Below, one piece after another: positions 3,516 to 45,300 of a DNA stretch of 64,000 nt (the stretch's first letter is position 1; the number at the start of each line of letters is the position of its first letter). The notes beneath the pieces are model-generated. The model was not told the DNA's origin and ran no database searches. It was given only the letters and a program-made list of their open reading frames with translations. Origin of the DNA: Mycteria americana (Eukaryota; Chordata; Aves; Ciconiiformes; Ciconiidae); contig NC_134367.1 of the NCBI RefSeq assembly GCF_035582795.1, positions 90,007,062-90,071,061 on the forward strand, read 5' to 3'. The position numbers and the translations under genes were made by a program.

Positions 3516-3866
3516 CATCGGATCATAAGGTAATTGAGTTAGGAAGGGACCTCAGAAAGTCTCTAGTCCATCCTTCTGCTCAAGGCAGGGTCAACTGAGA
3601 TCAGACCCAATTGCTCAGGGCTTTATCCAGTCGGGTCTTGAAACCCTCCAAGGGTGGAGACTGCACAGCCTCCCTGGGCATATTCCACTGCTTGGCTGTC
3701 CTCAGGGTGAAAAAGTTCTTCTTTATACCCAGTCTGAACCTGCTTCAGTTAGTTGTCTCTCCTCCTGACGTGCGCTGCTGTGAAGAGCTTCTTATAACCT
3801 CCTCATAGTTACTGGAAGGCTGCTACTAGGTCCCCCAAAGCTATCTCTTCTCCAGGCTAAACACCG
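3516..3866 (-). mobile_element. CR1 LINE 3' fragment, reverse orientation, diverged
   Basis: The + strand reads as the reverse complement of a CR1 3' end. It has a degraded form of the ATCATAGAATCA..GGAAGGGACCTC..CTAGTCCA start, followed by the usual reverse-strand blocks for the C-terminus of the CR1 reverse transcriptase: TCTTGAAACCCTCCAAGGG, GGTGAAAAAGTTCTTC and TCTTCTCCAGGCTAAAC. It is 5'-truncated, as most CR1 copies are, and clearly older than the copy at 22.6 kb. Confidence 0.85.
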
Positions 3867-10769: not shown

Positions 10770-11347
10770 TATTGTGGTTTAGCCCCAGTCAGCAATTCAG
10801 CCCCACGCAGCCGCTCGCTCACCCTCCCCCCCCCCGGTGGGGTGGGGGAGAGAATTGAAAGAGCAAAAGTAAGAAAACTCGTGGGTTGAGATAAGAACAA
10901 TTTAATCATTGGAACAACAACAACAACAAAAAATAATAATTTGTAATGAGAAGGAAAACAACAAGAGAGAGAGAGGAACAAAACCCAGGAAAAAAACAAG
11001 TGATACAACTGCTCACCACCTGCCGACCGATGCCCAGCCCATCCCCGAGCAGCAATCACTGCTCCCTGGCCAACTCCCCCCAGTTTCTATACTGAGCATG
11101 ACGCCATATGCTATGGAATAGCCCTTTGGCCAGTTTGGATCAACTCTCTTGGCTGTGCCCCCTCCCAGCTTCTTGTGCACCCGGCAGAGCACGGGAAGCT
11201 GAAAAGGCTTTGACCAGTGTAAGCATTACTTAGCAACGACTAAAACATCAGTGTGTTATCAACATTATTCTCATCCTAAATCCAAAACACAGCACTATAC
11301 CAGCTATTGAAAAGAAAATTAATTCTATCCCAGCCAAAACCAGGACA
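10770..11347 (-). mobile_element. Solo ERV LTR (copy 1), antisense to the + strand
   Basis: The sequence matches the LTRs at 26.5 and 38.4 kb along its length. On the - strand it begins with the TGTCCTGGTTTTGGCTGG block and ends with CTAAACCACAAT. No internal retroviral sequence adjoins it, so it looks like a solo LTR left by recombination. GTAAT occurs at or next to both edges and may be the target-site duplication. Over ~160 bases at the right-hand end it differs from copy 2 by about 8–9% by eye, which suggests a moderately old avian insertion. Confidence 0.85.
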
Positions 11348-26547: not shown

Positions 26548-27092
26548 TGTTGTGGTTTAGCCCCAGTTGGCAACCAAGCCCCACACAGCCGCTCACTCAC
26601 CCTGCCCCAGGTGGGATGGGGGAGAGAATCTGAAGGGCAAAAGTAAGAAAACTCGTGGGTTGAGATAAGAACTGAAATAAAATAAAATAAAAGTAATAAT
26701 AAAAGTAATAAAAAGGAAAGCAAGAAGAGAGAGAGAGAGGAACAAAATCCAAGGAAAAATAAAGTGATGCAACCGCTCACCACTTGCTGACCGATGCCCA
26801 TCCCATCCCCGAGCAGCGATCGCTGTGCCCCGTCCAACTCCCCCAGTTTCTATACTGAGCACGACTCCATATGGTATGGAATAGCCCTGTGGCCAGTCTG
26901 GCTGTGCCCCCTCCCAGCTTCTCGTGCGCCCGGCAGAGCATGGGAAGCTGAAAAGGCCTTGACCAGTGTAAGCATTACTTAGCAACAACTAAACTGTGTG
27001 TTATCAGCATTATTCTCAGACTAAATCCAAAGCACAGCACTATACCAGCTGCTAGAAAGAAAATTAACTCTATCCCAGCCGAAAGCAGGAAA
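26548..27092 (-). mobile_element. Solo ERV LTR (copy 2) at the SCCPDH upstream edge
   Basis: This is the same family and orientation as the LTRs at 10.8 and 38.4 kb. The + strand opens TGTTGTGGTTTAGCCCCAG and closes with the block CTATCCCAGCCGAAAGCAGG. No internal retroviral sequence adjoins it. Its right edge lies about 405 bases before the SCCPDH start codon, next to the CpG island, and it points away from that gene. No clear target-site duplication was found by eye. Confidence 0.85.
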
Positions 27093-27497: not shown

Positions 27498-27711
27498 ATG
27501 GCGGCGGGCGGCGGCGGCGGGGCCGGGGCGCCCGAGCGGCCCTACGACCTGGTGGTGTTCGGGGCCTCGGGCTTCACCGGCCAGTTCGTGGTGGAGGAGG
27601 TGGCGCGGGTGGCGGCCGGCGGGGAGCTGCGCGGCGCCCTGCGCTGGGCCGTGGCCGGGCGGAGCCAGGAGAAGCTGCAGGCGGTGCTGGAGCGGGCGGC
27701 CGAGAGGCTGG
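27498..27711 (+). CDS. SCCPDH: SCCPDH exon 1 (coding part)
   Basis: This exon encodes residues 1–71 plus one base of the next codon. After a glycine/alanine-rich leader it gives YDLVVFGASGFTGQFVVEE, the nucleotide-binding loop, then LRWAVAGRSQEKLQAVL. The donor is CTGG|GTACGG. The glycine run at residues 4–8 comes from GGC/GGG codons in the CpG island and makes the N-terminus slightly longer than the human one. Confidence 0.96.
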
Positions 27712-30700
27712 GTACGGGCCGCGGCTGGGGGTCCTGTGGCGCAGCGCCGTTGTCCGGGGCCGGCGCGGCCCCGGTGCCCCGGCCCCGTCCGTTGGGAGCC
27801 GCGCACGGGCGGGTGTGAGGGGAAGGGCTGAGGGGCGAACCGCGGCAAGCCCCTCGGTGTCGGGGCTGCGGAGGGCTGCGCCGGGCAGGTGGCGGCTCGG
27901 CCCGGGGGGGGAGGGACGCGCCCGTCGGCGCGGCGGGCGGTGTCGGTGACGGCGGTCTCCGGTGCGCAGGGAAGGCGGCGCTCGGGGCGGAGGTCGGCGT
28001 GCTGCTCTGCGATGTGGGCGACGCGGCCTCAGTGGCCGCCATGGCGAGGCAGACCCGGCTGGTGCTCAACTGCGTGGGCCCGGTGAGTGCGGTGATGCGG
28101 GCGGTGCTCCCACGGCGTCCGCCGGGCGCGGCTGCCGGCCGAGCCCGGGGCGGCGTCTGCCCCCCCCCCCCCCCCCCGCCGCCGCTCCTCGGCTGCGTGC
28201 GGCTGGGCTCCCTGTTCCTCGGGGCAAGGAGCTGCGACGGCTACCGGGAAAGCTGCCGCTGGGCCCCGGCATTTCGGGAGCCGCCCAGGTGAAATGTAGC
28301 TTTTTGAAATTGAACGGAAAGTACAACCATGTACTGTAATCGCCTAGAGATTTCCCACCACGGTTTCTGGTGGTGTAATTCACGGACAATTCTCACTGAA
28401 ATACAGCAGTTTGGGGGTTTTTTGTTGTTGGTTGGTTTTTTTTTTTTTAAGTCTTTCAGAGGCAGCATAAGAAACTGATTGTAAAATGGGGAGGAGTTTT
28501 GGGTTGGGCCAAAATGTTTTAAGTGGTGCTAGGGCTGAAAATAGAGCTGGAAAAGAAGCCCATAGACTTGCCGTTTTGAGTTCTTGGCCCCTTGAAAACT
28601 TTCAGCGGCAATATTTCTAGCGCATTCAGGGGGGATCAAAGTACGGGAGCTGGAAGTTGGGTCATGACAGCGTCTTTGAAATGACAAGTATTTAAGTAGA
28701 GAATGTGATGATAATACGAGTGCAAAAAGCAAACTGAGATTAGATATATCTAAATTGGCCTTGGTGATCTTATCTTATGAGAAAAATACAGTGGAGGAGT
28801 CCACAGCAAACTCGGTTATCAGTGATGAAGTTTGTTATGCTGTTCCTTCTCCCCACCCCCCCAAAAATACAAGTACTATTACATTTTTGCCCTACTTAGC
28901 AAAATCGATAGCCATCAAGTGTTTACTTTTATTGTAGATACACGTGTTGGAGAAAACACGTTGGGTGAGTTGTGGTGTGTGGGTTTTATTTTGTTATCTG
29001 TGGTGTTCTTTTCTTCTATAGTATAGATTCTTTGGAGAGCCTGTGGTAGAAGCTTGTGTGGAAAATGGTGCAAGCTGCATTGACATCAGTGGAGAACCCC
29101 AGGTATGTGACAGTAGAAAAATGCTACCTTATATCAAGGATCTATTAAAGGAGTATTTGTTTAGTATGTTTCGTGTTTCCGCTAATGTTTTTGAACGTGA
29201 AGACAAATTCTGCCTCCTGATCTACAATTTTAAGATGCATTAAGTATTTTAAAGTACATTAATGTGTATTAGTTGTATAGTTTTCTTGCTTATAGACAGT
29301 AGCCTCTCAGGTTCTTTCTGGAAATCCAAAAGTTTTGAGTTCTGCTTTAGGTGTCGATTGTGAGTCTACACAGGAATTTTGTGTAGATCACATTTCTTTG
29401 CACTGCTGTGACACTTTCATACCACAAAACAGGAGTAATATGTATCTGTCTTAAAGATGCTTGTAAGTGATTTCAATTATGTAGGGTGCTATGATATGAC
29501 AGTAAAGCACTGATGGCTAATATTGGGTATGGCCAAATATAGAGTTCTGCTTAAAATATTTGTTCTGACTGTGTTTTAGTTTCTGGAAGAAATGTACCTG
29601 AAATACAACAAAAAAGCTGCGGAAAAGGGAGTATATATCATTGGAAGCTGTGGCTTTGACACTATACCAGCCGATATGGGAGTACTGTACGCCAGAGACA
29701 AGTTGAAAGGTGACTTAGTTACGGGTGACTTTATGCTGAAAAAGAAATGCAGATGATGCCTTCATCTGGTTTCCTAAAGCAGCAATGCTTATGTGGAAAC
29801 TCCTTTAGTCTCTCTTTCTGCTTGCCTTTACCAGCTGACCAGTTTCAACCAAATCTGGTAGATAAAAATTTAAAAGTAAATCATATTCCCATTGGATTGG
29901 AGAAAATTAATCATTAGGTAGAGGAGGGATTCAAGGTAATGTTGCTCACTGAGAGAACAGAACCTTCAGTTGTCAGCAGTGGTCTGTTCAGCCAGCGTGT
30001 GGACATTTCTAGGCAAGCCTCAGCACACTGCTTCTTGTGCAGTGAGAATCTTATAGGGAAGAGACAGTGGGGACAGGAGGGCTGCGGGAAAGGGATCGCA
30101 AATTAGTGGGTAATCAGGTTTTGTAAGTTTTCTTTTTCTACTGCAAGCACTGAGAAGCTGTTGTATGAGTGCAAGTAGATAGCGCCATGCAATGCCTTTC
30201 TTTAAGAGCAGCTAGACAGTAACTGAAAGAAGATAAATATATTTGGGGAAAGATGTGAGATAATTTAATTCTATGCAAATAGTACTTGATCCTAATCTCA
30301 AATGAGGATACTTCGTTCATCAGGTCTGACTTTCAGTTGGGCCAATAAGAGTATCCCAATGTTTTGCTTTTATGTACTATTAAAACTGCTATTAAGTGGG
30401 ATTGCTTTACATTGGAGTGTATCATCAACTTTCAGTTTAAGAAAACTCAATCTGGATCTGATTGGAGAGAGAGGAGAGGCATGGAAATGAGTATCTGGTT
30501 GCTCATGGGGTTATAATTTGATGTCTGATACTTGTTTTGAATAAAGATACCTTTTATTTCTTCCTATTTTGACTTTGTGGTATTATCACCTGTCTGTCCA
30601 GTTGCTTGCTATATTGAAATTTGCCCATACAAGTACAGTTTTACAATCTCAGAAGGAACTGAGCAATGCAAAACAAAGCAGAATTTGGAGGAGTTTTTTG

Positions 30701-33700
30701 TTTTGCTGTTCATCCCAACTAAGCATTCCTTGTAAAACACAAACTGTGCTAAAATTAAATATTTTAGGTTATCTTGTGGGTTTGGTTTTTTTTTTTTGTA
30801 GTTAAGGTCTACCAAAATCCGTAAGTCTCTCTCAGTTTTCACAGCCTATATCATCCTTTATTTTACAGCTTGGAGAAAAACTAAATATGGCTCTTAATAT
30901 TCTTTTCCTCTCTTTCATTGATTATTTACATTATCTCATTAACTAGATAAGACAAATGAAAAATTTATTATTAGTGACCCTTATTGAAGTACTTTAGATA
31001 AGAAATTTGATACTTGCTAACTAAAATAGCTGTGGAACTTAATCTTAGTTTATTTTACTTTGAGATAAAGACGGGACTCTGCCTTTTCAACTAATAATGT
31101 CAGTGGCCTGCTATTTGAGTCTACTAGAGTGTCCTCTGGCTTTGTGAACTAAAGAATGTATATTGGCAGTTGCACTAACCGTTGTAGGTCCATTCCAGCT
31201 GAAATAGTCTATTCCGTTCTATATGCCAAGTAATGTTTTATCCTCCCTTAAAGGTACCCTCACTGCTGTCGAAAGTTTCCTGTCGGTGAAATCTGGGCCT
31301 GAGGTTAGTTGGTTTATACCTTCTTGGAAACTAAGAGGTATTTGTGAGAACATCACTGTAGCCCATTAGAATAACTGTTGTTACATTAATTCAGACCAAG
31401 GAACAAGCTGGCAATTCTTTGATGATGAGTCTAAGAACTTTATTCCTTAAGAGCTAATAAAAGTATCCCAAGCAAACACTATTTTGTAAGGTTCATTTGC
31501 ATAGGCTGTCTACCTAAGGTTTGTTGTATTAAGCTGTTTCAAGAAATACTTTTTTTTTTTGCAGAGATGTGGGAAGGATTCATAACACAAGGAAGCTATA
31601 ACAGAAACATAGTGTGTTGCCAGTAATCCTAGTGTTTGGCTGTTTGGGTGTTTTTTTGTTTGGGGGGGTTTGTTTCAATATACTTTAATGCATGTAATCG
31701 TAATACATATATGTAATAATTGTAATAATGTGTAATATATGTAATAATTCTAAGGTCATTATTAAAATAATGCGACAATGACCCAAACCAAGCCATTGTT
31801 GGTGCCCAACAATCAAACATACTGCTTCTCCTGTCCTGAGCACCCATCCTCACAGATGGGGCCCAAGTCATAGCCTGTTCTTATGAACATCTGGAAGAGT
31901 GGAGGAAGCCCATGGAAAGGCAGAGTGATACCTATCTGTTAAAGGACAGGGGATAGTAGTTAATGAGAATGTATAGATCTGTATGTTGGGTATAAAGATG
32001 GTTTAAGTATGTAGTATAAGTTGTAAGTGTTGGTAAGAAGGGATTTCAGTAATGAGAATTAAATACAATGGGAAGGTTAGAAGATACAGATATGTATGTA
32101 TGTATTAAATTATGTGGGACCTGAGCATGATGCAAATCATATAGAATTAAGGGGTGGAGATTGTATTGGGTCTGGCTGAAATGGAGTTAATTTTCCCCAT
32201 AGCAGCCCTCATAGTGCTGTGCTTTGTATCGGTAGCTAGAAAGGTGTTGATAATACACCACTGTTTTGGCTACTGCTGAGCAGTGCTTGCACAGCATCCA
32301 GGCTGTCTCTTGACCATTCACCCCCCCCCCCTCATCCAGTAGGCTGGGGGTGGGCAAAATCCTGGGAGGGGACATAGCCAGGACAGCTGACCCAAACTGA
32401 CCAAGGACTATTCCATACCATATGCTGTCTGTTCAGCAGTAAAAGCTAAGAGAAAGGAGGAGGGATGGGGGGCATTCATTATTGCGACATTTGTCTTCCG
32501 GAGGAACCGCTATGTGTACTGAAGCTCTGCTTCCCAGGAAGTGGCTGGACATTGCCTGCTGATGGGAAGTAGGGAAGAAATCTTTTGGTTTTGTTTGCTT
32601 CCACGTGCAGCCTCTGCTTTTGCTTTATTAAACTGCCTTTATCTTGACCCATGAGGAGTCTTTTTTTGGTGGGTTTTTTTTTTTTCCCCAATCTTATTTT
32701 CTCCCCTTCCTGTCCTACTGAGGAGGGGAGTGATAGAGCAGCTTGGTGGGCACCTCGCTTTCAGCCAAGATCAACCCACCACATTTCAATATACTTTAAA
32801 GCATGTAATCATAATACATATATGTAATAATTGTAATAACATATGTAATAATTCCAAGGTCATTATTAAAATAATACATGAAACCTTTAGATACTGAATT
32901 AATTACTGTTTCATGGTATGTCATCAGGGTTGTTGTATACATGACGGGACCTGGAAGTCAGCTGTTTATGGCCTTGCGAATCAAGACAACCTGAGGAAGC
33001 TTCGAAAAAAGATAGGCTATGCCCCTGTTCCAGTAGTTGGTGCAAAACTTAAAAGAAGGTATAAGAAGTGTAAGATGTGAAACATGCTGTCTTCTAATGG
33101 TTCCAGTATTTATGAGATTGTTGACATATTATTAAATACTGAAAAGATGCATTTAGGACTTCAGTATACTACAAACATAGATGGTTATCTAGTAGAATTG
33201 AAGATAAGTTCAGTTTTACTGATCTGTTCATATTTTACTGAAAAAAGAACATGTCCCAGCATTTACTGGGTCTCAAAGTTAACTTGTTCTAAAAGACTTT
33301 TAGTGACATGGCAAACTTCTGAGTTTGATTTCAGAAGTGATCAGTAGAATGGAAAAAAGAAGTGCGAGGAGAATATTATTTTTATTGTTAAATTCATCCT
33401 TGCATGGAGTTTTGAGTTGAGACAGGGATAAATTTGGAATAGTTTGCTTTCAGTGAAAAGAGGTAATGTCAAAAATGCTTGAGAAAAAGCCAGTATTGGG
33501 AGGACCGTTATGATCAATTTCTTTATGTGAATGTGTTTTCTGACTTTCTTTTTTTTTTCATTTGCAGAGGACCTGTGTTTTACAATCAGGAATTCAAACA
33601 GTACTCCATTCCATTCATCGGATCAGATGTTTCTGTTGTGAAACGGTCTCAGCGTTATTTGCACACAGAGTTGCAGGAAACACCTGTAAGTTACTGTTAT

Positions 33701-36700
33701 TAGTATACTATGTCTTTATTGCCATTTTCAATGAATCTTTCATTATGTAATAACTGTTCTTAGTGCAGATCTATGTAGTAGGGTTTCTGTAGTTAGGTAA
33801 ATAGTAATGAACTTCAGTGTGCTTTTGCTTTTGTAAAGAAGGAAGCTTGTTCTGTTGATCACCTTTAGGAGCTGCTTGACCCTGGAAGCTGCTTGACCTG
33901 ATGTGTTCCAGGTTCTTCTGGGTGCACTGGCCTGTTTCATACCACTTGATGCTCTGCCTGATGAGCTTGCTTATTGCTGCTGGCATAATAGTTATGAGAG
34001 TCTCTTGTAGGGTTCTCATGCTGTCTGATTTCTGGGTATATATTTATAGGGAATGGAAGCCCTGAGTCACAGAAATATTTGAAAGGTAGGCTTCATGATT
34101 TTCAGGAATGATAAATATATTAAATTCTGTTCCTGTGCAGAAGCTTTTTTTGTTCTATCAGTAAAGCTTCTCAAAGCATCATAACTGTAGTCTGTGTAAC
34201 TATAGTCAGGTCAGTATAGTGTAGTCAGCATTCTGATAAAGAATTCACATGCTTCTCATTTGTATCTGGAGACTTCTTTGATGCTTGGGACTCTGGTATA
34301 CAGAGTAAAGGTAATGTGAAGAGGTGGTAGTGGAAAAGATGTTTAGTTTTTGTTTTCCATGGTTTCGTGAGAGGATACCAGCAATCTGTATAACAGCTGT
34401 GCAGAATCACAGGCATCAATTAAGAGATGAAGGTGAGATAGTGCTCTAAAAATATACTTGGAAACTACTAATGGGAAAGGCTTGCCATTGCTATTCCAGA
34501 ATTCTAAATAAGGCCTCTGTTTCTCTTAAACTAAAGCACAAAGAGGAGGAAAGGAAGATCTTGGGAAAGAAGCCTGAAATCAGATAGCAAAACACATCTT
34601 TCTTTCAAGTTTTCCACTCTTGTTTACCATGCTCACTCCCTCGCTATTCTGTAGTTACATTGTTTTCTCATAATGAATTATAAAGTGAAGCATTATTCAA
34701 AGAGTTGTTTAGAACTAAGACAATTGTTTAAGGCCCTGTTTAAACAGCTATCTATTGTATCAAACAATTGCATCCTAATTTGGAGGTAGATATATTTTTA
34801 CAAATGAATTGATGCAAGAATTTTAATGTAAACTCTATCACTGAAAGGATGTTTTTGCCTCAGGTGCAGTATGGTGCTTATATGAACGTAGGTGGTCTTG
34901 GCTCTGTTATCAAGCTGATGTTTGCTGGCATTTTATTTCTTCTTCTTGTGAAGTTTAGCTTTGGAAGAAAACTTCTGACAAAAGTAAGTGTTCAAAACAC
35001 AAAAGAATTAAGTGTTTGGAGATTCTCCCCTGCCCCCAGTTTACTGTTGGTCTTTTTTTTTTTTTTTTTTTTTTTTTGTCTCCCCCCCTTATTATATAGT
35101 ACCCGGAATTTTTCTCTGCTGGACGCTTCACAAAGAAAGGACCAACCCAGAAACAGGTAACTGGCTGTTTTCCATCACAATTATTGAATAAATTTGTTAC
35201 GGTAATGGTGGAATAGTAATCTAGAGTCAACTAGATTACTCTAGATTAATGACAGTTTAATGAAAGTACTCTAGAAGGGGAAGGGGAAGGGGAAAATTAG
35301 TCTCAAAGAAATAATTTCTAAATGCACATTGCCTGTTCCTGTTCAGATAGCTTTGAATATTTAAATAATCATGCCTTCTGCTATTAGACATCAAAGCAGT
35401 GGAACTCATGTGAGGGAAAAAATGGATCATGTTGCTGTGTCTGATGTATTTACATGGATGGCTCACAGCACTCAATCTGTCAAAGGTGATGACAGAGGGA
35501 GACGGAGTAGCAAAGACCCAGGACTGAAAGCACTGAGAGAATAAATGGACTTTTAGAACAACAGTTCCAACAAAGTGGAAGTGATTAAAAATTCAGATGA
35601 GGTAGTACCTTTTAAGCAGTAACTCAAAATAACTACTCTCATGTTTAGATGGATTATAGTATTTGGCATAATAGATACTTATATCAGGCGAGCACAAGTA
35701 GTGAATATAAGTGAGTTAATGTTTTGGTGACCACACTTGTCTTGTCCACTACAGTTGGATGGAACCTCTTTTACAATGACTTTTTTTGGCGAGGGTTACA
35801 GTGAGGGGCAAGATCCCCAGAATGGCAAACCAAATGTAAAGATCTGCACCGAAGTGAAAGGACCAGGTATGTATGTTAGTAGCAGCTAACTGCTTTTGCG
35901 TCACGTTCCCTTGCTATTCCTTTCACCCTCGAGGAGCACTTGCAACATGGATGAAGTCAACAGCCTTTACAGACTGTTAGCTTGGATACTAGCATTCCTT
36001 GTGACGTGTTTTTTGAGATAGCCAATTCATTTGCATTCTTGTCATTCTCTTGCCTTCTGACTTTCTCCATTCCAGTGTTAATTTTTGCAGAGTAGAGCAG
36101 TTAAAGTGAGAGTGCTTTAAGGATACTTTTCAGTTTTTACAGCCTGGACTTACTACTTGTTTATTTCCAGTCCCCTGTGAGTGAACTTAAACAGAGCTGG
36201 CACGTTATCATTTCTAGCTATAACATACTTGCTCTCAGATCATTGATCTGAGGGGAGATGACACCTCAAGTAAAGTTTGGAGACAGCAAGAATGTATATT
36301 CAGAAAGCAGCTAATGAAGCATAGCTTCTTTATATAACTAGAGATGTAGCTGAATGCAACAGTCTCACACTAAAAGTCTGAATTGAAGCACAGGATGGGG
36401 AAAGCTCTTGCTGTAATGGAGAGCCCTCTGTCACCGTGAGGTGATCGCTCATGGTTGTTGTGTGGTCATAGGCCTGTATTTGAAGCAGTATTTGTCTAGA
36501 TTAGATCTTAAGGACTTCACCAGCTACTTGGGATGATTACCAGTTAAAAAAGCTGTTCTTAAGTCGGGAAGGCTGTTTCATTGCCAAAGAGATTATTCTT
36601 CAGCATGCTCTAGGTAAGAGCAAGATTACATTCTACATTTCAACACACTGTACATCATTTGTTGTTGGTTTTTGGTTTGTTTGTTTGGTTTTTTTTTTGT

Positions 36701-37351
36701 CAGAGCCTGGCTATGTTGCTACACCAATTGCAATGGTTCAAGCAGCTGTATCTCTTCTGGAAGATGCAGCTTGTCTGCCTAAACAGTAAGTACTTTCCCA
36801 TGCAGAAGGGCTTGATCTCCCTTAAAGGGACTGTGTGCATATGTTTCTCCTTGAAAATACAGATCTCGTAACCCTGTGGATTTCTGTTATCTCACCCAAA
36901 GGGCTGTGCAATGGAGATACTTCACCAAAAGCTGATTTAAAGCCACTTATTCTTTATCTGCCTTTCAGTTTGAAAGGATGTAGTCACAGGTTTTTAGTAA
37001 TGCTTTTGCAGCATCTGTTGCATCAGTGTCTATATTTTCAGTTAATGGAATGGTTTCTATTGAGTTTGCTGGATGCAGACATGAACTTGTGAATAGAACC
37101 AGCTTGCCAAATTCCTCATATGCTCTCTTGTGGGACAAAGTGGCTTTTTCTTTCTTAGGCAGGGAAACACATCTTTGACTTCAACAAAAGGTGTCACTCA
37201 ATCACTGTACCACTAATGTTTTTCTCTTTTGATGTTCATTAACAGGGGTGGTGTATATTCTCCAGGAGCTGCCTTCTCTAAAACAAAACTGATTGATCGC
37301 CTGAACAAACATGGAGTGGAGTTCTCTGTTATTAGCAAGCCTGAAGTCTGA
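27498..37351 (+). CDS. SCCPDH: SCCPDH, saccharopine dehydrogenase-like oxidoreductase (whole gene, 12 coding exons)
   Basis: Twelve exons with GT–AG borders join in phase to 437 codons plus TGA. Human SCCPDH has 429. The protein starts with a Rossmann dinucleotide-binding fold (GASGFTG, residues 22–28). It continues with the family blocks LVLNCVGPYRFYGEPVV, GASCIDISGEPQ, IHDGTWKSAVYG and IPFIGSDVSVVKRSQRYL. One hydrophobic segment (about residues 291–308) follows, then the conserved tail YVATPIAMVQAA and FSKTKLIDRLNKHGVEFSVI. The family resembles saccharopine dehydrogenase, but its substrate is unsettled. Human SCCPDH has been reported on lipid droplets and other membranes. The ATG has a good context (TCTCTCCATGG). 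The gene looks intact and is driven from a CpG island. It converges with AHCTF1. Confidence 0.97.
27970..28082 (+). CDS. SCCPDH: SCCPDH exon 2
   Basis: The acceptor is GTGCGCAG|GG and the donor is GGCCCG|GTGAGT. It encodes VLLCDVGDAASVAAMARQT and RLVLNCVGP, the second half of the Rossmann fold. It lies inside the CpG island. An 18-base C run (28,160–28,177) follows in intron 2. Confidence 0.95.
29022..29102 (+). CDS. SCCPDH: SCCPDH exon 3
   Basis: The acceptor is TTCTATAG|TATAGA and the donor is CCCCAG|GTATGT. The 27 codons include RFFGEPVVEACVENGAS and CIDISGEPQ. This exon is nearly identical to the human segment and is in phase 0 at both ends. Confidence 0.96.
29580..29709 (+). CDS. SCCPDH: SCCPDH exon 4
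   Basis: The acceptor is GTTTTAG|TTTCTG and the donor is TTGAAAG|GTGACT. It encodes FLEEMYLKYNKKAAEKG, then VYIIGSCGFDTIPADMGVLY, the conserved block after the nucleotide-binding fold. The exon ends one base into a glycine codon. Confidence 0.96.
31254..31303 (+). CDS. SCCPDH: SCCPDH exon 5
   Basis: This is a short 50-base exon between CCTTAAAG and GTTAGT. It encodes TLTAVESFLSVKSGPE and is homologous to the human TLTAVESFLTIHSGPE. Confidence 0.94.
31673..31771. repeat. Left copy of a ~95-base direct repeat flanking an ERV remnant
   Basis: TTTCAATATACTTTAATGCA is followed by an AT-rich block that ends GGTCATTATTAAAATAAT. The right-hand copy is at 32,784–32,875 with few differences and one small length change. 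The 1.0 kb between the copies is retroviral. Confidence 0.9.
31772..32783 (+). mobile_element. ERV remnant: short internal piece plus 3' LTR, in SCCPDH intron 5
   Basis: The LTR is 32,162–32,783. It opens TGTATTGGGTCTGGCTG and ends CCCACCACA, with the avian ERV blocks CATAGCAGCCCTCATAGTGC and CAGCTGACCCAAACTGACC. A purine-rich tract (GGGGTGGAG) just before it fits a polypurine tract. Upstream, 31,772–32,161 looks like internal leader: TTGGTGCCCAAC near 31,800 resembles a primer-binding site. No 5' LTR or viral genes are seen, so the element is a broken fossil. It lies in the same orientation as SCCPDH. Confidence 0.8.
32784..32875. repeat. Right copy of the ~95-base direct repeat
   Basis: This copy begins immediately after the LTR end and repeats 31,673–31,771. 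The next SCCPDH exon starts 52 bases further on, so this copy is probably the original host sequence. Confidence 0.9.
32928..33058 (+). CDS. SCCPDH: SCCPDH exon 6
   Basis: The acceptor is GTCATCAG|GGTTGT and the donor is AAAAGAAG|GTATAAG. It encodes CIHDGTWKSAVYGLANQDNL and PVPVVGAKLKR. The exon ends two bases into an arginine codon completed by exon 7. Confidence 0.95.
33568..33685 (+). CDS. SCCPDH: SCCPDH exon 7
   Basis: The acceptor is CATTTGCAG|AGGACC and the donor is ACACCT|GTAAGT. It encodes GPVFYNQEFKQYSIPFIGSD and VSVVKRSQRYLHTELQETP, matching the human block IPFMGSDVSVVRRTQRYL. Confidence 0.96.
34864..34983 (+). CDS. SCCPDH: SCCPDH exon 8, membrane segment
   Basis: The acceptor is TTGCCTCAG|GTGCAG and the donor is ACAAAA|GTAAGT. 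It encodes the only strong hydrophobic stretch of the protein, GSVIKLMFAGILFLLLVKF, followed by basic residues (GRKLLTK). This fits a single membrane-embedded or hairpin segment and the reported lipid-droplet association of the human protein. The intron that follows is only 116 bases and carries 25 consecutive T (35,053–35,077). Confidence 0.96.
35100..35156 (+). CDS. SCCPDH: SCCPDH exon 9
   Basis: The acceptor is TTATATAG|TACCCG and the donor is AAACAG|GTAACT. It encodes YPEFFSAGRFTKKGPTQKQ, equivalent to the human segment ending GPTQKQ. Confidence 0.95.
35215..35240. repeat. Perfect 10-bp inverted repeat in SCCPDH intron 9
   Basis: AGTAATCTAG (35,215–35,224) pairs with CTAGATTACT (35,231–35,240) across AGTCAA. 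A CTCTAGA element follows nearby. No function is inferred. Confidence 0.7.
35755..35866 (+). CDS. SCCPDH: SCCPDH exon 10
   Basis: The acceptor is CACTACAG|TTGGAT and the donor is GGACCAG|GTATGT. It encodes SFTMTFFGEGYSEGQ and KPNVKICTEVKGP. Human has SFTLTFFGQGYSQG and KPNIKICTQVKGP. Confidence 0.96.
36704..36785 (+). CDS. SCCPDH: SCCPDH exon 11
   Basis: The acceptor follows a T-rich tract (TTTGTCAG|AGCCTG) and the donor is CCTAAACA|GTAAGT. It encodes PGYVATPIAMVQAAVSLLED, the conserved C-terminal core. Confidence 0.96.
37246..37351 (+). CDS. SCCPDH: SCCPDH exon 12, C-terminus and stop
   Basis: The acceptor is TTCATTAACAG|GGGTGG. It encodes GGVYSPGAAFSKTKLIDRLN and KHGVEFSVISKPEV, then TGA at 37,349–37,351. 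Human ends FSVISSSEV. Confidence 0.97.
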
Positions 37352-37399
37352 AGTCAAAACATAACTGTATGAACTAATACCTTTCCTGGGTCTAACTCC

Positions 37400-37405
37400 A
37401 ATAAA
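37400..37405 (+). terminator. SCCPDH: SCCPDH polyadenylation signal AATAAA
   Basis: A canonical AATAAA lies 49 bases after the stop codon, giving a very short 3' UTR if used. No other strong + strand signal was noted before the copied AHCTF1 fragment. Confidence 0.75.
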
Positions 37406-37686
37406 AATCATTTGGCTGTAATAGCCTAATCATAAAATACTTTCACTGTGCTATTGTTTACAGGAGAAACAGAAGAAAAATTGAGTTAAAAATTATATTA
37501 CTATTTGCTACACTGAGCAAACCCATAAAGGGTATTGAGCATATTAAATTAGTGACTTACTGGGTACTAGTTCTAGAATTTTGTTTAATCTTCTCATCTA
37601 AGTTTCAAGTTATTACTTAATGGAACCTTTGTAGGATTTGTTGGTGTATACATTTATTGTAGCAGTAGAGATTCTAAAAGCTCTGA

Positions 37687-37900
37687 AAATTACTCTGAGA
37701 TATAAAATACTCTCCATCTCCCTCAGCTGCATCGCATTTGCTGTCTTTGTTACCAGGCAAATCACATGCAGCCTGTTGCTCTGTACTGTCATAGCTGTAC
37801 TGAAGATTGCCTGATGGGTGGTGTTCACTATATGGTGATGTTTCAGGTGCTTCTTCGGAGGTTTGTGCCTTAACCGCACTCTCTTCAATAACCTAAAGTT
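37687..37900 (-). pseudogene. Copied fragment of the last AHCTF1 coding exon
   Basis: These 214 bases align without gaps to 42,104–42,317, the acceptor end of the last AHCTF1 exon, with about 7 differences by eye (~97% identity). The copy keeps the splice-acceptor AG and about 8 intron bases, then the exon from GTTATTGAAGAG. In the exon frame it would encode about 68 residues, ending GEYFISQSNF, and meets a TAG four codons after homology ends. It lies on the same strand as AHCTF1, 3.2 kb past that gene's stop codon. The retained intron bases point to a DNA-level copy rather than a spliced retrocopy. Confidence 0.9.
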
Positions 37901-37938
37901 GGGTGAGACCTTAAAGAGGTCTCACCAACCTTAAAGAG
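37899..37938. repeat. Hairpin and short direct repeat at the edge of the copied exon
   Basis: TTGGGTGAGACC and GGTCTCACCAA form an 11-bp stem with one bulged G and a 7-base loop (TTAAAGA). ACCTTAAAGAG also occurs twice, 20 bases apart (37,908–37,918 and 37,928–37,938). The structure starts where homology to AHCTF1 stops. Confidence 0.8.
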
Positions 37939-37939
37939 C

Positions 37940-39020
37940 TGGTGGCACTAGCCTGGAGGAGAAAGGGAAGGTGAAAGAACGGGGGAAACCATCCTCCCCG
38001 TCTTCCCCCTCGACTGGGTCTCCGAGGAGAAAAGCTGTGAGGAGAAAGGAAGGAGTGGAAGGAGAAAGCGTGTCATTATTAATAGTTTCGAGAGATGGCG
38101 CCCGAGGTGCGGAGATGACGGCAGTACCAACTACAACTTCCCAATCGGTTTTTTGACCAGTGACGTTATCGTCTCATAAGCCGATGTTACACGGTACAGT
38201 AAAATGATAGTCCTGACCCATCTCCCAGAAGTGACAAACCGCACCGCCGGGAACACATACTGCAAGTGTGTATCTTACATCATACAACCATGCGCGCAAA
38301 TGACAAACCATTGTGACCAGCGACTATTAAACTAAAAAAATGAATGCTTATAACGCATTTATTTTAACATGCTCTGGTCAGATCTGTCGTTATCTCAACC
38401 CTTCATACCCCACGTTGGGTGCCAAAGAGGACTGTCGTGGTTTAACCCCAGCTGGCAACTAAGCCCCACACAGCCGCTCGCTCACTGCCCCGCGGTGGGA
38501 GAGGGGAGAGAATCAGAAGGGTAAAAGTGAGAAAACTCATGGGTTGAAATAAGAACAGTTTAATAATTGAAATAAAACATAATAATAATAATAATAAATA
38601 ATAATAACAATACATTGTAATGAGAAGGAAAACAACAGAAGAGTGAGAGAGGAAGAAAACTCAGGAAAAACAAGTGATGCAAGCACTCACCTCCCACCGA
38701 CTGACCCCCAGCCAGTCCCCGAGCAGCGATCACTGCCCCCCGGCCACCTCCCCCCAGCTTATATACTGCGCATGACGTCCTATGCTATGGAATAGCCCTT
38801 TGGCCGGTTGGGGTCAGCTGTCCTGGCTGTGCTCCCTCCCAGCTTCTTGTGCGCCTGGCAGAGCTTGGGGAGCTGACAAGTCCCTGACTTAGTGTAAGCA
38901 CTGCTTAGCGACAAATCAGTCATCGGTGTGTTACCACATTATTCTCACGCTAAATCCAAAACACAGCACTACTCCAGCTACTAGGAAGAAAATGAATTCT
39001 ATCCCAGTCGAAACCAAAAA
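37940..39020 (-). mobile_element. Partial ERV: 5' LTR, primer-binding site and leader, between SCCPDH and AHCTF1
   Basis: On the - strand the LTR runs 39,020 to 38,433 and ends TAAACCACGACA. Eight bases after the LTR edge comes TTTGGCACCCAACGTGGGG (38,426–38,408). This resembles lysine-tRNA primer-binding sites and sets the orientation. About 470 bases of leader-like sequence follow. No gag, pol, env or second LTR is seen, so this is a broken fossil. The LTR holds a TATA-like TATATAAG near 38,760 and an (ATA)n tract at 38,581–38,607. The left edge is approximate. It is the same family as the LTRs at 10.8 and 26.5 kb. Confidence 0.8.
38408..38426 (-). other. Retroviral primer-binding site
   Basis: The - strand sequence TTTGGCACCCAACGTGGGG resembles the TGGCGCCCAACGTGGGG class that pairs with the 3' end of lysine tRNA. 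It sits just inside the LTR, as expected for a 5' LTR. Confidence 0.75.
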
Positions 39021-39132: not shown

Positions 39133-40551
39133 GTTTTTTTTTAAAAAAAGTTTACTAAAATGTAACATTTTTGGTTCTCGTGTTAGGGATCAATTAATTA
39201 TGCCTGTGACTAATTATCACTTTAGGGTTTGTCTGTAAATCGAGCTGTACTACATCAGCTTTTTATTCAACACTATTTTATAGGATCCAGTATGGCTTGT
39301 ACTGTGAGTTGCTCCATATACTCACCGTTTCTATTTTTGCTAATTTGAAATTGACTGAGTCTTTTTAAAAGTACAACCTGGAAAGATCTTGGAAATAAAT
39401 GACACTCCTTGACCAAGATCACAAAAGACCTCTCTGTAAAAAAACGATCGAGTGCCTCCTCTTCATAGCTGAGCAAGCAAATGCATACACAAGCACTGCT
39501 GTCCGGTAGGAGTGCCCCCACTAATAGCTTAAGTTAGGAATCAAGTTTTGCAAACACACTTGAAAGTAATACTGAGTTCCAGGGTGACAGAAATGTAGAT
39601 AAAAGCTAGCTAGTGCTTCAGACCAGTAAACTGATAAATGCCAGTCATTTGCATTACACTTACATGGATGTTAATAACGGGAGATAAGCAAGCTGACCAC
39701 TCTACAACTGTGTATTAGCCAAAACTGCTTTTAGTTGGTTCTTTGAATAGTCTTACCTGGCCTGCAAAACTGTTGGATCCTGCTGAGATGAGCATACCAT
39801 TCTCGTCCTTCAGGAAGCTACTATGAGGCCAACAGGCCAGATCAAAAGTAAAGGATTTCCTGTGCCCTGGATTCCCAGGGTCATATGTGCTTGCGCTGTT
39901 GGTGTTTGTAGCAATCACACCCCTACTTCCTGCATCCTTCTCTCTCTGTGTATTAAAATGACAATTGTAGTATCAAAATACCAGCAACCAGTCATCCACT
40001 CATCGTTCCTGGTTTAGTCTCATCAGTACGTGTAACTTGCATTTTTCCCTCTACCTCCCATGCTGGGCATCCGCATAGGACGGTGCGCTGCAAAATGCAT
40101 TTCATTTTAGGAACAGCTTTAGTTCAGAAGGAACCACGGTACGTTGATCTCCAAGCATACCAGAGACACTCATCTTCTTGACTACTTTGGCGAAAAAAGC
40201 ATTCCTGGAACGGAAACCCAGAAGTTTTGCACAGAAGACAAAAGTACAAGCAAAATAAGAAACACATGCTATCTTATTACTTGAAATTTTATTATTTCAT
40301 CGTATTTTCAGATTGGCCTAGACTAATTACCTTACAAGCATTGCCTAACAACTCATGACAAACTATGGATTGGCTTCTGCCTGGAGCTTGTGTTTTCTCC
40401 ACCAGAAATCAACAACTAAGCTATTTATGAGTAGTTACATGGGAACTGATGCAATTGCAGCAAATCAATTTATTGTGCTGACAACCCTGAGAGTAGTCTT
40501 CCATGAGAGGAGGTTCCAATGGGGGATTAAACGACTTAGTTATCTGTGGCC
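39133..40551. other. AHCTF1 3' flank / probable 3' UTR, no other gene
   Basis: Only short open frames are seen. A 67-codon - strand frame at 39,715–39,918 does not resemble ELYS. I looked here for the mammalian ELYS C-terminal blocks (SPPPVEIRLISPLASP, PKQILRRKML) and did not find them. Confidence 0.5.
40288..40293 (-). terminator. AHCTF1: Candidate AHCTF1 polyadenylation signal
   Basis: AATAAA on the - strand lies 259 bases after the stop codon. A second AATAAA at 40,474–40,469 is only 78 bases after the stop. Which one is used cannot be told from sequence alone. Confidence 0.4.
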
Positions 40552-42309
40552 TTAATTGCACACTGGGCATGCTCTTGTAATACGTTCTGCTAAAATTCGT
40601 AGTATTTCACCACGTCGTGATGGGTTTCTGCCTTCACGCAGCAACGGCCTGCCACCAGGTCCTTGGGGGAAGGCCTCCTCCCCTGTGCTCTCCTCCGATA
40701 CTGACCGTCTCTTTCTGCCCCGACGCCCTGTCCTTACTGTAGTCCTGGGTGTGGCTGATTCCTCAGTTGGCTGTGCAGGCGTTTGCTCAGGAGTATCCAT
40801 TTTTTCTGGTTCAGCATGTGGAACTCTTCTTCTTCTTCTCCTAGGAGTATCAAGGACTTCCACCTTCCCACCTGAATGTATGTCTTCCTGAGCAGAGAGA
40901 GATGCTGTGTCTGCCAAGAGATTTTGTGCCCCCTTCCTAGCACTTCTTCTAGGAGTGACAGGCAGTTTAAATTCTGTTTGAGGAAGCGATGATTTAGACA
41001 CATCAAGGTCAGAATTTTCTGAAACTTCTGATGAACTCTTCTTTCTTCTTCTGCCTCTTTTAGCTGGCACAGGTAAAAGGACTTGGTCACTAGGCTGCAC
41101 CTCTTGATCCTTGACAATATTTCCAGTAACTTGTAAATTAATGCTTTTCGGTTTTCTTGCACTTCTACCGGGACTGACTGCCGGCTTTATCTTCTGATCA
41201 GTGTCAACCTGGCCAGTTGCTTGATCTCCTGCTGAACTTTTTCCTCCTCTAGGCCTTTTGGGAGTAGCAGAAGCAATAAGGCTACCTTCAGCAACAGAAG
41301 TTTCCTCATTAGCCTCTTCCAAGAGCTCAGAGGCAGCTTCCTTTGCCCTCCTGAATCCTCTTCTTGGAGTAACGGCTGTGGACTGCGTACTGACGGACAA
41401 CGCTCGTCCATCAGAATGGCTGCTTTCTCCTTTTTCGGAATTAGTCGGTTTAGGCTTCCTACCTCTCCTAGGAGTCACAGGTATCACAGGTATTTGCTCA
41501 TCTTGAGCATCTTGTTCTGTTTGAAGACGAGAAGTCTCAGATGCTTCTTTCGTTCGCCTGGTACTCCTCCTAGGAGACAGTCCTAACAAAAGTGGCTTGT
41601 CTCTCTTCAGTAGTTGCTGAGCGCCTGCCGATGCAATACTTAGACCTCTACTCGGTTGTCCCCTTGTGCGGGTTCTCGGAGTGATGACGTACTCTACTTG
41701 CTGTATGCTGGTTTCATCCTCCACTCCTTCTGGCACAGTTGTTAAGGGAGCTTTTGCCTTCTGGAATCTAGCTACCTTTTTACCTATGTTTTCATGAATA
41801 GGTTGTTCTACCACTTCAGAGGTAAAGTCTTTACTTCTTGTGTCTTTGATTACATCCAGCAAGTTCTCAGCAATAGCTACCTTAATGGGTTCAGGCACGT
41901 ATGGCAGCGACTCTGCAATATTTTGAGATTCCTGATCACTAGTTACAGTGGACACTGAGTTTGTAACATGTTCTTGCTTTTCAGTATTTCCAAAACTGTT
42001 CACAGGTTTTTCCTCTGTTGCTGTGCCAGCCGCTTTAGAAGCATCTACTAACGTAGGGTCTCCCGTCTCCGCTTCACCTTCTTCTGCTTCCAAGAATAAA
42101 GTGAAATTACTCTGAGATAGAAAATGCTCTCCATCTCCCTCAGCTGCATCGCATTCGCCATCTTTGTTACCAGGCAAATCACATGCAGCCCGTTGCTCTG
42201 TACTGTCATAGCTGTACTGAAGATTGCCTGATGGGTGGTGTTCACTATATGGTGATGTTTCAGGTGCTTCTTCGGAGGTTTGTGCCTTAACCGCACTCTC
42301 TTCAATAAC
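40552..42309 (-). CDS. AHCTF1: AHCTF1 last coding exon: acidic region, basic repeats, C-terminus
   Basis: The acceptor TTAACTTCAG|GTTATT opens 585 codons and TAA at 40,554–40,552. The conserved blocks are [18 protein letters not shown] and [20 protein letters not shown], the latter identical to human. The rest is disordered, with about ten basic units: [66 protein letters not shown] and GRRGRKRR. Several fit AT-hooks or CDK (S/T)PxK/R sites, suited to chromatin binding and mitotic control. The final ~35 residues ([20 protein letters not shown] region) do not resemble the human end. A hidden donor before the stop cannot be excluded. Confidence 0.93.
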   Translation of the reverse strand, partial: VIEESAVKAQTSEEAPETSPYSEHHPSGNLQYSYDSTEQRAACDLPGNKDGECDAAEGDGEHFLSQSNFTLFLEAEEGEAETGDPTLVDASKAAGTATEEKPVNSFGNTEKQEHVTNSVSTVTSDQESQNIAESLPYVPEPIKVAIAENLLDVIKDTRSKDFTSEVVEQPIHENIGKKVARFQKAKAPLTTVPEGVEDETSIQQVEYVITPRTRTRGQPSRGLSIASAGAQQLLKRDKPLLLGLSPRRSTRRTKEASETSRLQTEQDAQDEQIPVIPVTPRRGRKPKPTNSEKGESSHSDGRALSVSTQSTAVTPRRGFRRAKEAASELLEEANEETSVAEGSLIASATPKRPRGGKSSAGDQATGQVDTDQKIKPAVSPGRSARKPKSINLQVTGNIVKDQEVQPSDQVLLPVPAKRGRRRKKSSSEVSENSDLDVSKSSLPQTEFKLPVTPRRSARKGAQNLLADTASLSAQEDIHSGGKVEVLDTPRRRRRRVPHAEPEKMDTPEQTPAQPTEESATPRTTVRTGRRGRKRRSVSEESTGEEAFPQGPGGRPLLREGRNPSRRGEILRILAERITRACPVCN

Positions 42310-45300
42310 CTGAAGTTAAGAAATGTCTGTTAATGCGTTACTAATTACCAGACAGACTAACTTCAAAGTGAGCTAGATGAAACTGAGGAGAGTGAAATGC
42401 TGCTTTTCCTTTCAGATCACCACTGAATGTAAAGTTAGAAACGTACAACGTACTCTCTACTACAGCTAAAAGCTTATGCGTTTAAGGGACAGAGAACAGA
42501 GTATTCGGTGTATGCAGTCACATGCTCCATTTCTGATAGTTCTGTTCACGACTAACGAGTTGCCGCCACCCGTGAACAAAGTGAGCAGTTTTACAATCCA
42601 AGCGGTAGACACAACTGGCAGTAATCATCACATTGCAGTACTCCCTGGCCTGACCACAAATCCACACAGAGTGACCGACTCTGCATCTAACAGGGTAAAA
42701 TACAGTTATGGCCCCAAAGTTTAAAGTTGCAGTCACAACAGCTGTCACCGCAACACGCCGTCAAACTGGCCAGGTGTCACAGCCGACAACTCAGGACTGC
42801 ACTTTAAGGAATCACTTGGATTGCATGAGACAACACGTATATTCTAAATACCTCCGTCTCGTGTTTTGTAGTTCCCTGTACTGAGCAATTAGTCTTTCCT
42901 TCTAGACCCACATGAGATACTCAAGCTTTTATGTTGAGAACAAAAGTACTATCTGTTACCTATTTCCAGTGACTCAAATGGCCCAGATAATTTAATCAAC
43001 GTGTAGGGACCTTTGCCCAGCCCTCTAAGTGACAGCGATAGCCAACGATGGCAGAAGGAAGAAGCCGCTCAGCAGGAGTCTCCATAGAATCTGCTTATTC
43101 TCTTGCCTCCTGCCTTGTCAAAAGTTGCGAAAGCATCACGTTATAGCAACATGCCTTGCTTCAAAACTGAATTCAAGACGTGCGAGTCCGCATAAACTTT
43201 CCTTTTATGCTTACAAATCTGCAAACAGGAAAGCAGTAAGTAGGTTGTTCTAAATTCGGGGGAGGTAGACAAGCCCAAACCAGATGTTTACATCTAAATC
43301 AGTAAGAACCAGTTACAACAAAAGCAGAAAAACCTCCACTGTACTGCTACATGAATGACTGCAGGAGCTTTGTGACCGTCTCAGGTACCTGCTCCCTTCT
43401 TCTCATCACAAATTTTCCATCTACTCCCATGAGTGATTTATGTATTCCCAAGTCTATAATCATCTTCTCTACAGCGTCGTCCTAAATCCCAAAGCTGAGA
43501 CCAGCTAAATAAGTAAGTGACTGCCTATTTAACTTCATCTGAAATCTGGGACACTGAAAAGCACTGTCCCTTACTTAAGACCAATGTCTGTGTGGTACGC
43601 CTGCCTTTCAGTTTGTATTTCACTCTGGCTAGTGTTAATTCCTGTGACTATAATCCTACAGGAATTTGACGCTCTACTCCGTATGGTACTTAGAGGACAT
43701 CCACAAGGACTCCAAATACCTCATCAGCCCCAGCAGAAGCAAGGAAGAACCTGGGGAAAAACCTGGGACAACTGGAGAAGCTCTAGTTCTCGTTTTCAGT
43801 CCATGCGAACAACCTTTTAAGATTCATATTGTACAAGTTTAGATGTTAAAAAACCATGGGTTTACAGAAAAAAAAAAAAAAAAAACAACCCCCAAAAGCC
43901 TGAGAGTTTTAAGTAGCTGGAAATATCTTGACACTGAAATTAACTCATTCCTGGGAATTCTGTTTATGTTAATCAGGAACAAATAGTAAAGGACTGAAGC
44001 ACCTAAACCATTCTGAAAATGAGTTTGGTTCCCACGTCATATTGTCATTCGCTAAATGGCCCCCAGTATCGAAAAGCTGCACTCCCCAGCTTTTCTTATT
44101 GCCTTTAACATCAAAACTATTTCTTTTTTAAGTCAAATAAGAAACGTTTAAGTTCTAGAAAACCAAGCGAACGCATGGGTATTTTAAAAAATAGGTTAGG
44201 CACTTTTTGGTACTAGTACAGCTCTCAAAGGCCCAAGTCTTGACAGGTTCCATTCTCTGCTGTAGGGACAGGAAACGCATAGGAGAAAAATGTACCTGCC
44301 CTTACGTAATGAGGTTTTAACTTGTGCTAGCCAGCTAAAGAAACGGAGACACTTTGGGGTGCCTTCTAATTGTCAGTAAGACAGGACTGCCCTCAAGTTG
44401 CAAAATGGGAAAATAGTTTACTTACATGAATTTCCTCTGTTTTAGGAAGACTGTTAGAAACAGTTCTTTCTTCCTGCGGAAAAGGAACATTTTCTTCAAC
44501 TTCAGCTGCTTCTCGGTTACCTTCTTTAGGTAAATCCACACGCTTCCCCTCCAGGCGATTTTCTGAAGGAGTACTGACCATAGCCTCACTGTCAAGGATA
44601 CTTATCACAGCTGGAAGAGATTTATATCATTGTAACTTATCTGCTATGTAAAAGACTCGGGTTTAAGCAACAGCAAGTAACAGGGGGAACAGGAGCCAAC
44701 AGTACAGTTCTCCATCCTGCCACATCTATTGGGCTTTCTCCAAAACCTAGAAGCCAGAACTGTCTGTCTGTAAAGGAGGCAGCCCCACAATATGGAGGAG
44801 GAAAAAAAAAACAAAAACAAAAAGAAAAAAGAAAAAGGGGAAGGGGAAAATCAGCTGGCAAGTCCATGGACAAAAAGAACAGCAGAGGAAAGGGTGGCTG
44901 GAAAGGCACACTGATAGCTGCTGCTTCTTCACAGCCGGAATACCGAGGATGCATCATCTTTTAAAATAGGGACTCAAGCAGCAGATCCCCACAGCACACA
45001 AATGAGTAGTGGGGTACAACATTCAAATAAATACTGAACGCTCCTTCTCATAGTCTACATTCTACCCGTTTTCTCAAAATCTTTGTCAAGAAGAGGAACA
45101 TTCAGTGTGCGTTTTCGACAAGGACTTTCTCTGAGGAGGGCATTCTCTCTACAGTTGAATGAAAGTTAGCAGTAACATGCCAGTAGTACTTCAGTCCGAG
45201 ACACCTCTCGTGGTATGGCAAACTCCACATTTTACTTTACTAAGGAGTTCAGCTACCTTAACTCACACAACATCTCCAACATACTGTACATACATGCACT

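Follow-up and report, generated by a model that had tools for sequence, protein, structure and literature searches.

A 214-nt exon copy, probably a scar of templated insertion, at the edge of a seven-unit AHCTF1 array in Mycteria americana

The DNA analysed here (the window) is a stretch of 64,000 nt from the genome of Mycteria americana, on contig NC_134367.1 (C3:90,007,062-90,071,061), in which two genes lie in convergent orientation (Table 1). We take the left-hand gene to be SCCPDH, mainly from its C-terminus and its synteny; its Pfam support is weak (PF03435, E 0.0035, 18.1 bits, below the cut-off of 25.1). The region of this gene also holds a direct repeat of ~99 nt, 89% identical, at 31,673-31,771 and 32,784-32,875. 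The right-hand gene is AHCTF1, which encodes the nucleoporin ELYS; nuclear-pore assembly on chromosomes begins with this protein, which has proved essential in the animals studied. The identity of the gene is given by ELYS entries of the PDB (best match E 6.5e-47) and by two Pfam families in the first 1055 residues of the joined protein of unit 1, the one unit scanned, namely the beta-propeller PF16687 (E 1.1e-253) and PF13934 (E 5.1e-51). The beginning of AHCTF1's last coding exon occurs again, as a 214-nt copy, between the two genes. The initial annotation had named both neighbours rightly and had taken the DNA for that of a bird; AHCTF1 is in addition an array of seven units, and the copy lies at its edge.

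Table 1. Features around the 214-nt copy, in window coordinates.
Feature	Position	Strand	Basis or remark
SCCPDH, convergent neighbour (presumed name)	27,498-37,351	+	from the start of the first ORF to the stop codon (37,349-37,351); AATAAA at 37,400
SCCPDH 3' flank up to the probable scar	37,352-37,686	+	genome search
214-nt copy, start of AHCTF1 last coding exon (form of units 1-6)	37,687-37,900	-	alignment, genome search
Exon part of copy, 206 nt	37,687-37,892	-	
Intron part of copy, 8 nt	37,893-37,900	-	
Junction filler, 34 nt	37,901-37,934	.	
Leader of endogenous-retrovirus-like element, cut at 37,935	37,935-38,431	-	BLAST, genome search
LTR-like repeat of that element	38,432-39,016	-	bounded by BLAST with the window's two other copies
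Kinesin-like exon	39,754-39,945	-	also in units 2-6; PF00225 listed for P0001
Deletion junction, unit 1	40,571-40,573	.	BLAST
Unit-1 AHCTF1 last coding exon, 585 codons and stop	40,552-42,309	-	ends ITRACPVCN-stop
Unit-1 homologue of copy, one of seven possible sources	42,104-42,317	-	alignment, genome search
Rest of unit-1 AHCTF1 in window	42,310-64,000	-	coding exons reach 79,598, window-relative (L009, L010)

Exon 2 of AHCTF1 has seven matches in the genome (7/7 candidates), which lie in order on C3 as do those of the last coding exon. These two sets of seven matches define a tandem array of seven head-to-tail units at C3:90,044,996-90,442,342 (from 37,935 of the window onward; the right edge is approximate). 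Units 2, 3 and 4, for whose comparison C3:90,071,062-90,271,061 was fetched, match the window from 37,935 to its end with 98.7%-99.7% identity, taken piecewise. Exons were located with a human ELYS sequence, and the 29 coding blocks that run from human residue 1 into the last exon are gap-free in units 1-4; in the same units, blocks 1-28 are free of stops over the 1,391-1,393 codons compared (block 11 being trimmed of an intron edge), and 568 codons of the last exon are open in all seven units. Units 5-7 were read in part, covering the last exon, exon 2, the deletion joint of units 5 and 6, and the ends of unit 7. In their head-to-tail order and ~99% likeness the units resemble other tandem arrays under concerted evolution, from which this array differs in that six of the seven units share a C-terminal deletion and the C-terminal exon occurs once, in the unit at the far end.

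A genome search found the C-terminal exon a single time (1/1 candidates), compared with seven matches for exon 2. It belongs to unit 7, which carries three further exons (tblastn stretches L043 8771-8640, 8205-8101 and 7469-7278) and ends VVRRKML-stop; close to these exons, splice-site dinucleotides can be assigned by eye, and the last of the exons aligns to human ELYS residues 2204-2266 (E 1.2e-16). Relative to unit 7, units 1-6 have a 5.67-kb deletion that removes all three exons. At the DNA level the ending ITRACPVCN-stop is found in 6/6 truncated units, with CAT for CGT just before it in unit 5. Thus, while unit 1 has the beta-propeller and PF13934 of the known nucleoporin and unit 7 matches the human C-terminus, units 1-6 differ in the loss of ~180 residues from the C-terminus (the complete protein of Ciconia maguari has 178 there), and with them of the RRK stretch, which unit 7 has; upstream basic motifs such as KRGRRRKK are retained. 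Beside the deletion, units 7 and 1 differ at 19 of 108 nt, and just beyond it at 0 of 156, a sharp border of the kind seen in gene conversion. In L043, an LTR-like piece in opposite orientation (3696-3928) occupies the place that ~300 nt of 3' flank have in units 1-6.

PMC6499780 describes an Arg-Arg-Lys near the C-terminal end of ELYS as essential for nucleosome binding, at the acidic patch, and a Xenopus C-terminal fragment lacking its last ten residues as no longer binding nucleosomes. In PMC4920428, chromatin binding is conferred by the C-terminal domains of ELYS, and N-terminal halves reach pores, less efficiently than the full-length protein. As read from their sequence, units 1-6 would encode an ELYS able to join the pore and unable to anchor through RRK, and some DNA binding through the upstream basic motifs may remain.

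A truncated ending is annotated in other birds as well. Among the tails of 145 protein rows (best hits and cluster representatives, the best 120 of 745 in one search; tails as given by automatic annotation), 122 are like FPKPVVRRKML with three substitutions or fewer, five are of the truncated type, and 18 are partial models, other isoforms or different endings. The five truncated rows come from Ciconia boyciana (P0001, RITRACP, annotated as continuing into a kinesin-like stretch), Accipiter gentilis (P0071, RITRTCLVCK-stop), Haliaeetus albicilla (P0086, RITRTCLVCQ-stop) and Spheniscus humboldti (P0130 and P0132, VTRTCPVCK-stop). That storks, hawks, eagles and a penguin share the break and the C-x-V-C tail argues for one old deletion; the bird orders concerned are tens of millions of years old. 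In a maximum-likelihood tree of 35 last-exon rows, the seven units group together (100/99), C. boyciana and C. maguari are placed beside them (100/100), as befits a stork or a near relative of storks, and truncated and complete forms cluster by lineage (storks, hawks and eagles) and not by type. It seems that the truncated paralogue is old and that its body has been homogenised in each lineage, as gene conversion would give.

Variable sites allow a look at constraint on this form. The last exon has one synonymous and seven nonsynonymous variable sites in units 1-4 (two and eight in units 1-6), and the other 28 blocks have 15 of each in units 1-4, where the expected nonsynonymous share is 0.77 (P = 0.0014, transition bias left uncorrected). 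The last exon and the 28 blocks do not differ significantly (Fisher P = 0.11). The nonsynonymous shortfall in the 28 blocks counts for a working truncated protein; against one, an open body could be maintained by conversion alone, and no constraint shows in the last exon. Our suggestion is a tentative one, possible and not yet probable, that several bird orders carry an anchor-less tandem ELYS paralogue, made by one ancestral deletion, long kept, homogenised by conversion and amplified to six copies here, which retains the pore-binding half and would act as a competitor or buffer. Were this true, truncated ELYS would uncouple NUP107-160 recruitment from chromatin, for example in the germ line or early embryo.

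The 214-nt copy aligns with 42,104-42,317 of unit 1 on the same strand, ungapped and with seven mismatches, as had been claimed, and BLAST of the window against itself returns the pair at E = 6.7e-98, far beyond chance. In unit 1 the last coding exon has 42,309 as its first base, eight nucleotides short of 42,317, where the match stops. The copied segment therefore includes the acceptor AG (AACTTCAG in unit 1, AACTTTAG in the copy), which as a trinucleotide is TAG in the copy in place of CAG; the initial annotation was right that the acceptor and about eight intron bases are kept. It erred in describing an exon end, since what was copied is the start of the last coding exon, and in placing the copy 3.2 kb past the AHCTF1 stop, the measured distance to the unit-1 stop codon (40,552-40,554) being 2.65-2.87 kb. 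The flanks of copy and homologue were aligned with each other and do not match, so that a plain tandem duplication is rightly set aside.

The 214 nt have eight matches in the 1.35-Gb assembly (8/8 candidates scored), all of them on C3. Besides the copy itself these are seven exons spaced 56-61 kb apart, at 90,049,165, 90,105,591, 90,164,685, 90,221,229, 90,279,110, 90,338,271 and 90,399,168. Between the copy and any one unit, 6-8 of the 214 sites differ; between units, 0-3. At one site the copy has the Q of units 2 and 7, unlike unit 1. The match to unit 1 thus holds, but the view of that segment as the sole donor does not; with seven near-identical exons, it is one candidate among them. The copy also has changes of its own, E to K, G to S and H to Y, at positions that are invariant across the seven units, and its drift reads like that of non-coding DNA.

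For timing, the residues of the copy were compared with 87 anchored bird proteins, 58 of the 145 having been dropped as lacking the anchor motif. Two residues, A and G, are shared by the copy and 7/7 units and occur in 0/87 bird rows, both Ciconia included. At a further site the copy and both Ciconia have I and all seven units have L, other birds having 65 I and 12 L of 85. The sharing of A and G by copy and units, and not by Ciconia, makes it most likely that the copy arose after the split from Ciconia, unless these residues were brought later by gene conversion; the comparison covers 68 residues, and such sharing could also result if the units had later converted the copy. Because the copy keeps I, its origin probably predates the homogenisation of the present units for L. 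We also considered the copy as the birth junction of the array and rejected this, given that it has residues peculiar to the units of this species; moreover, Ciconia already has the truncated form, as do hawks, eagles and a penguin to judge from their tails.

On the SCCPDH side the copy abuts single-copy DNA (a query of 37,300-37,686 has one genome match, itself, from 1/1 candidates). On the other side is the 34-nt filler, which contains an 11-nt direct repeat (at 37,908 and 37,928) and takes part in an inverted repeat with 16-nt arms at 37,896-37,911 and 37,917-37,932, 88% complementary and 5 nt apart, the first arm reaching into the copy. A search for the source of the filler gave no match of at least 13 nt elsewhere in the window or in the loci fetched by then, and microhomology at the joints of the copy, judged by eye, amounts to a few bases at most. 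Next comes the leader of the retrovirus-like element, a repeat with at least 44 genome matches (best 40 of 581 candidates scored) in which a primer-binding-like stretch can be read by eye. The viral nature of the element is assigned from its LTR-like repeats, its genome-wide copies and weak Pfam matches, those next to unit 7 being to reverse transcriptase (E 0.0097) and RNase H (E 0.00073), both below cut-off (three pieces searched). Its LTR-like repeat is one of three same-strand copies of a family in the window (10,772-11,345, 26,550-27,090 and 38,432-39,016), 76%-82% alike.

Homology of the window with units 2-4 begins exactly at 37,935, and for units 5 and 6 it starts from the same leader base. 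We considered this position as a tandem junction and rejected it; it is the cut point of the element in unit 1. Past the leader, units 2-6 run on into sequence that genome copies L038, L041 and L042 have there too (the three compared of six non-array leader loci, L037, L039 and L040 being left out); unit 1 lacks this continuation, its leader being cut at 37,935. Unit 7 has no leader among the leader matches listed; there, related sequence reaches the 92,357 equivalent, and ~90 nt separate it from the equivalent of 40,021. With the leader absent from unit 7 also, the element must have been cut more than once within the array. Kinesin-like exons, presumably of KIF28, are present in the four fetched unit junctions (L011, L016, L022 and L028), and a search for them to the left of unit 1 found none. 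Those of L011 (1258-1539 and 3060-3212) were duplicated along with the AHCTF1 units. The copy marks the left edge of the array, and the element body and kinesin-like exons of the other junctions are absent there.

We regard the copy as probably a scar of templated insertion, left by a deletion at that edge of the AHCTF1 array which faces SCCPDH. A break or fork collapse at the edge would have led to deletion of the body of the retrovirus-like element and of the kinesin-like exons found there in the fetched junctions. A polymerase would then have switched template to the last exon of an AHCTF1 unit, of which the nearest is 4.2 kb away, and copied 214 nt of it in the same orientation, after which the partly self-complementary 34 nt would have been added and joined to the retroviral leader at 37,935. 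Theta-mediated end joining and microhomology-mediated break-induced replication are candidate routes. Joints of such a look are the product of polymerase-driven template switching or end joining. The edge position, the missing element body and kinesin-like exons and the repeats of the filler count for this reading. As in known templated-insertion scars (polymerase theta, MMBIR or FoSTeS), a short copy of nearby sequence has unrelated flanks and a repeat-bearing filler; here, however, the insert is 214 nt, which is long for theta, and microhomology is slight. The deletion and the sequence lost in it, the origin in a single event and the polymerase mechanism are inferred from the joint as it stands in this one genome. 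Such a scar is most likely without function.

A remnant of a lost leftmost AHCTF1 unit, trimmed to 214 nt by deletions on both sides, would leave an identical layout, which speaks against the scar reading, and is its chief rival. The orientation of the copy is that of the units, arrays gain and lose units, and the copy is not recent, with its 6-8 differences per 214 nt from each unit against 0-3 between units. A remnant would however require two independent deletions with ends 214 nt apart and would leave the self-complementary filler unaccounted for, and we consider it rather unlikely. An assembly artefact, whether a false duplication or a misjoin, is improbable: arrays are error-prone and false duplications in assemblies are documented (PMC9516828), but unit 1 differs from units 2-4 by ~0.3%-1.3% in long pieces, unit spacing varies, the 3' end of unit 7 is different, and the truncated tail is annotated in C. 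boyciana too.

It is very unlikely that the copy serves as an alternative terminal exon of unit-1 AHCTF1, reached by splicing of read-through transcripts. On paper this would be possible, with the acceptor AG kept, 72 open codons before a TAG at 37,674-37,676 and, close by at 37,658, an AATAAA on the minus strand. The case is weak, however: the filler replaces the sequence upstream of the acceptor, CAG has become TAG, minus-strand AATAAA motifs at 40,474, 40,293, 39,267 and 38,363 and an LTR intervene before the copy is reached, and the E to K, G to S and H to Y changes fall where the seven units agree. A truncated ELYS does exist here by a different route, the genomic deletion in units 1-6. 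Capture of a host RNA by the adjoining retrovirus-like element has equally little probability. The leader and LTR that adjoin the copy and its filler are on the same strand, with the primer-binding-like stretch noted above; yet the far side is the single-copy SCCPDH flank without retroviral sequence, all eight genome matches are in this array region, and eight intron bases are included in the copy. The scar of templated insertion, in our preferred reading, is most likely ordinary debris of genome repair at a remarkable place, minor in itself, which records a rearrangement at the edge of the array.

Six anchor-less ELYS genes beside one complete gene are more surprising than the scar, and are the result worth following. 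They amount to a natural test of the role of the nucleosome-binding part of the protein, and the array to one of how nucleoporin dosage can change. No description of AHCTF1 copies in birds was found among the listed titles and abstract openings of open-licence papers, which is weak evidence of novelty. Other birds in the protein set have ELYS-like sequences of further kinds. Numenius arquata has ELYS-like paralogues (P0120 and P0125) with yet another C-terminal tail, ending DRIGKICSVCKYV, encoded on a contig equal in length to that of its full-length protein P0024. Theristicus caerulescens has an ELYS-like protein of 2463 residues (P0110) with an internally repeated block, and here too the contig equals in length that of a full ELYS.
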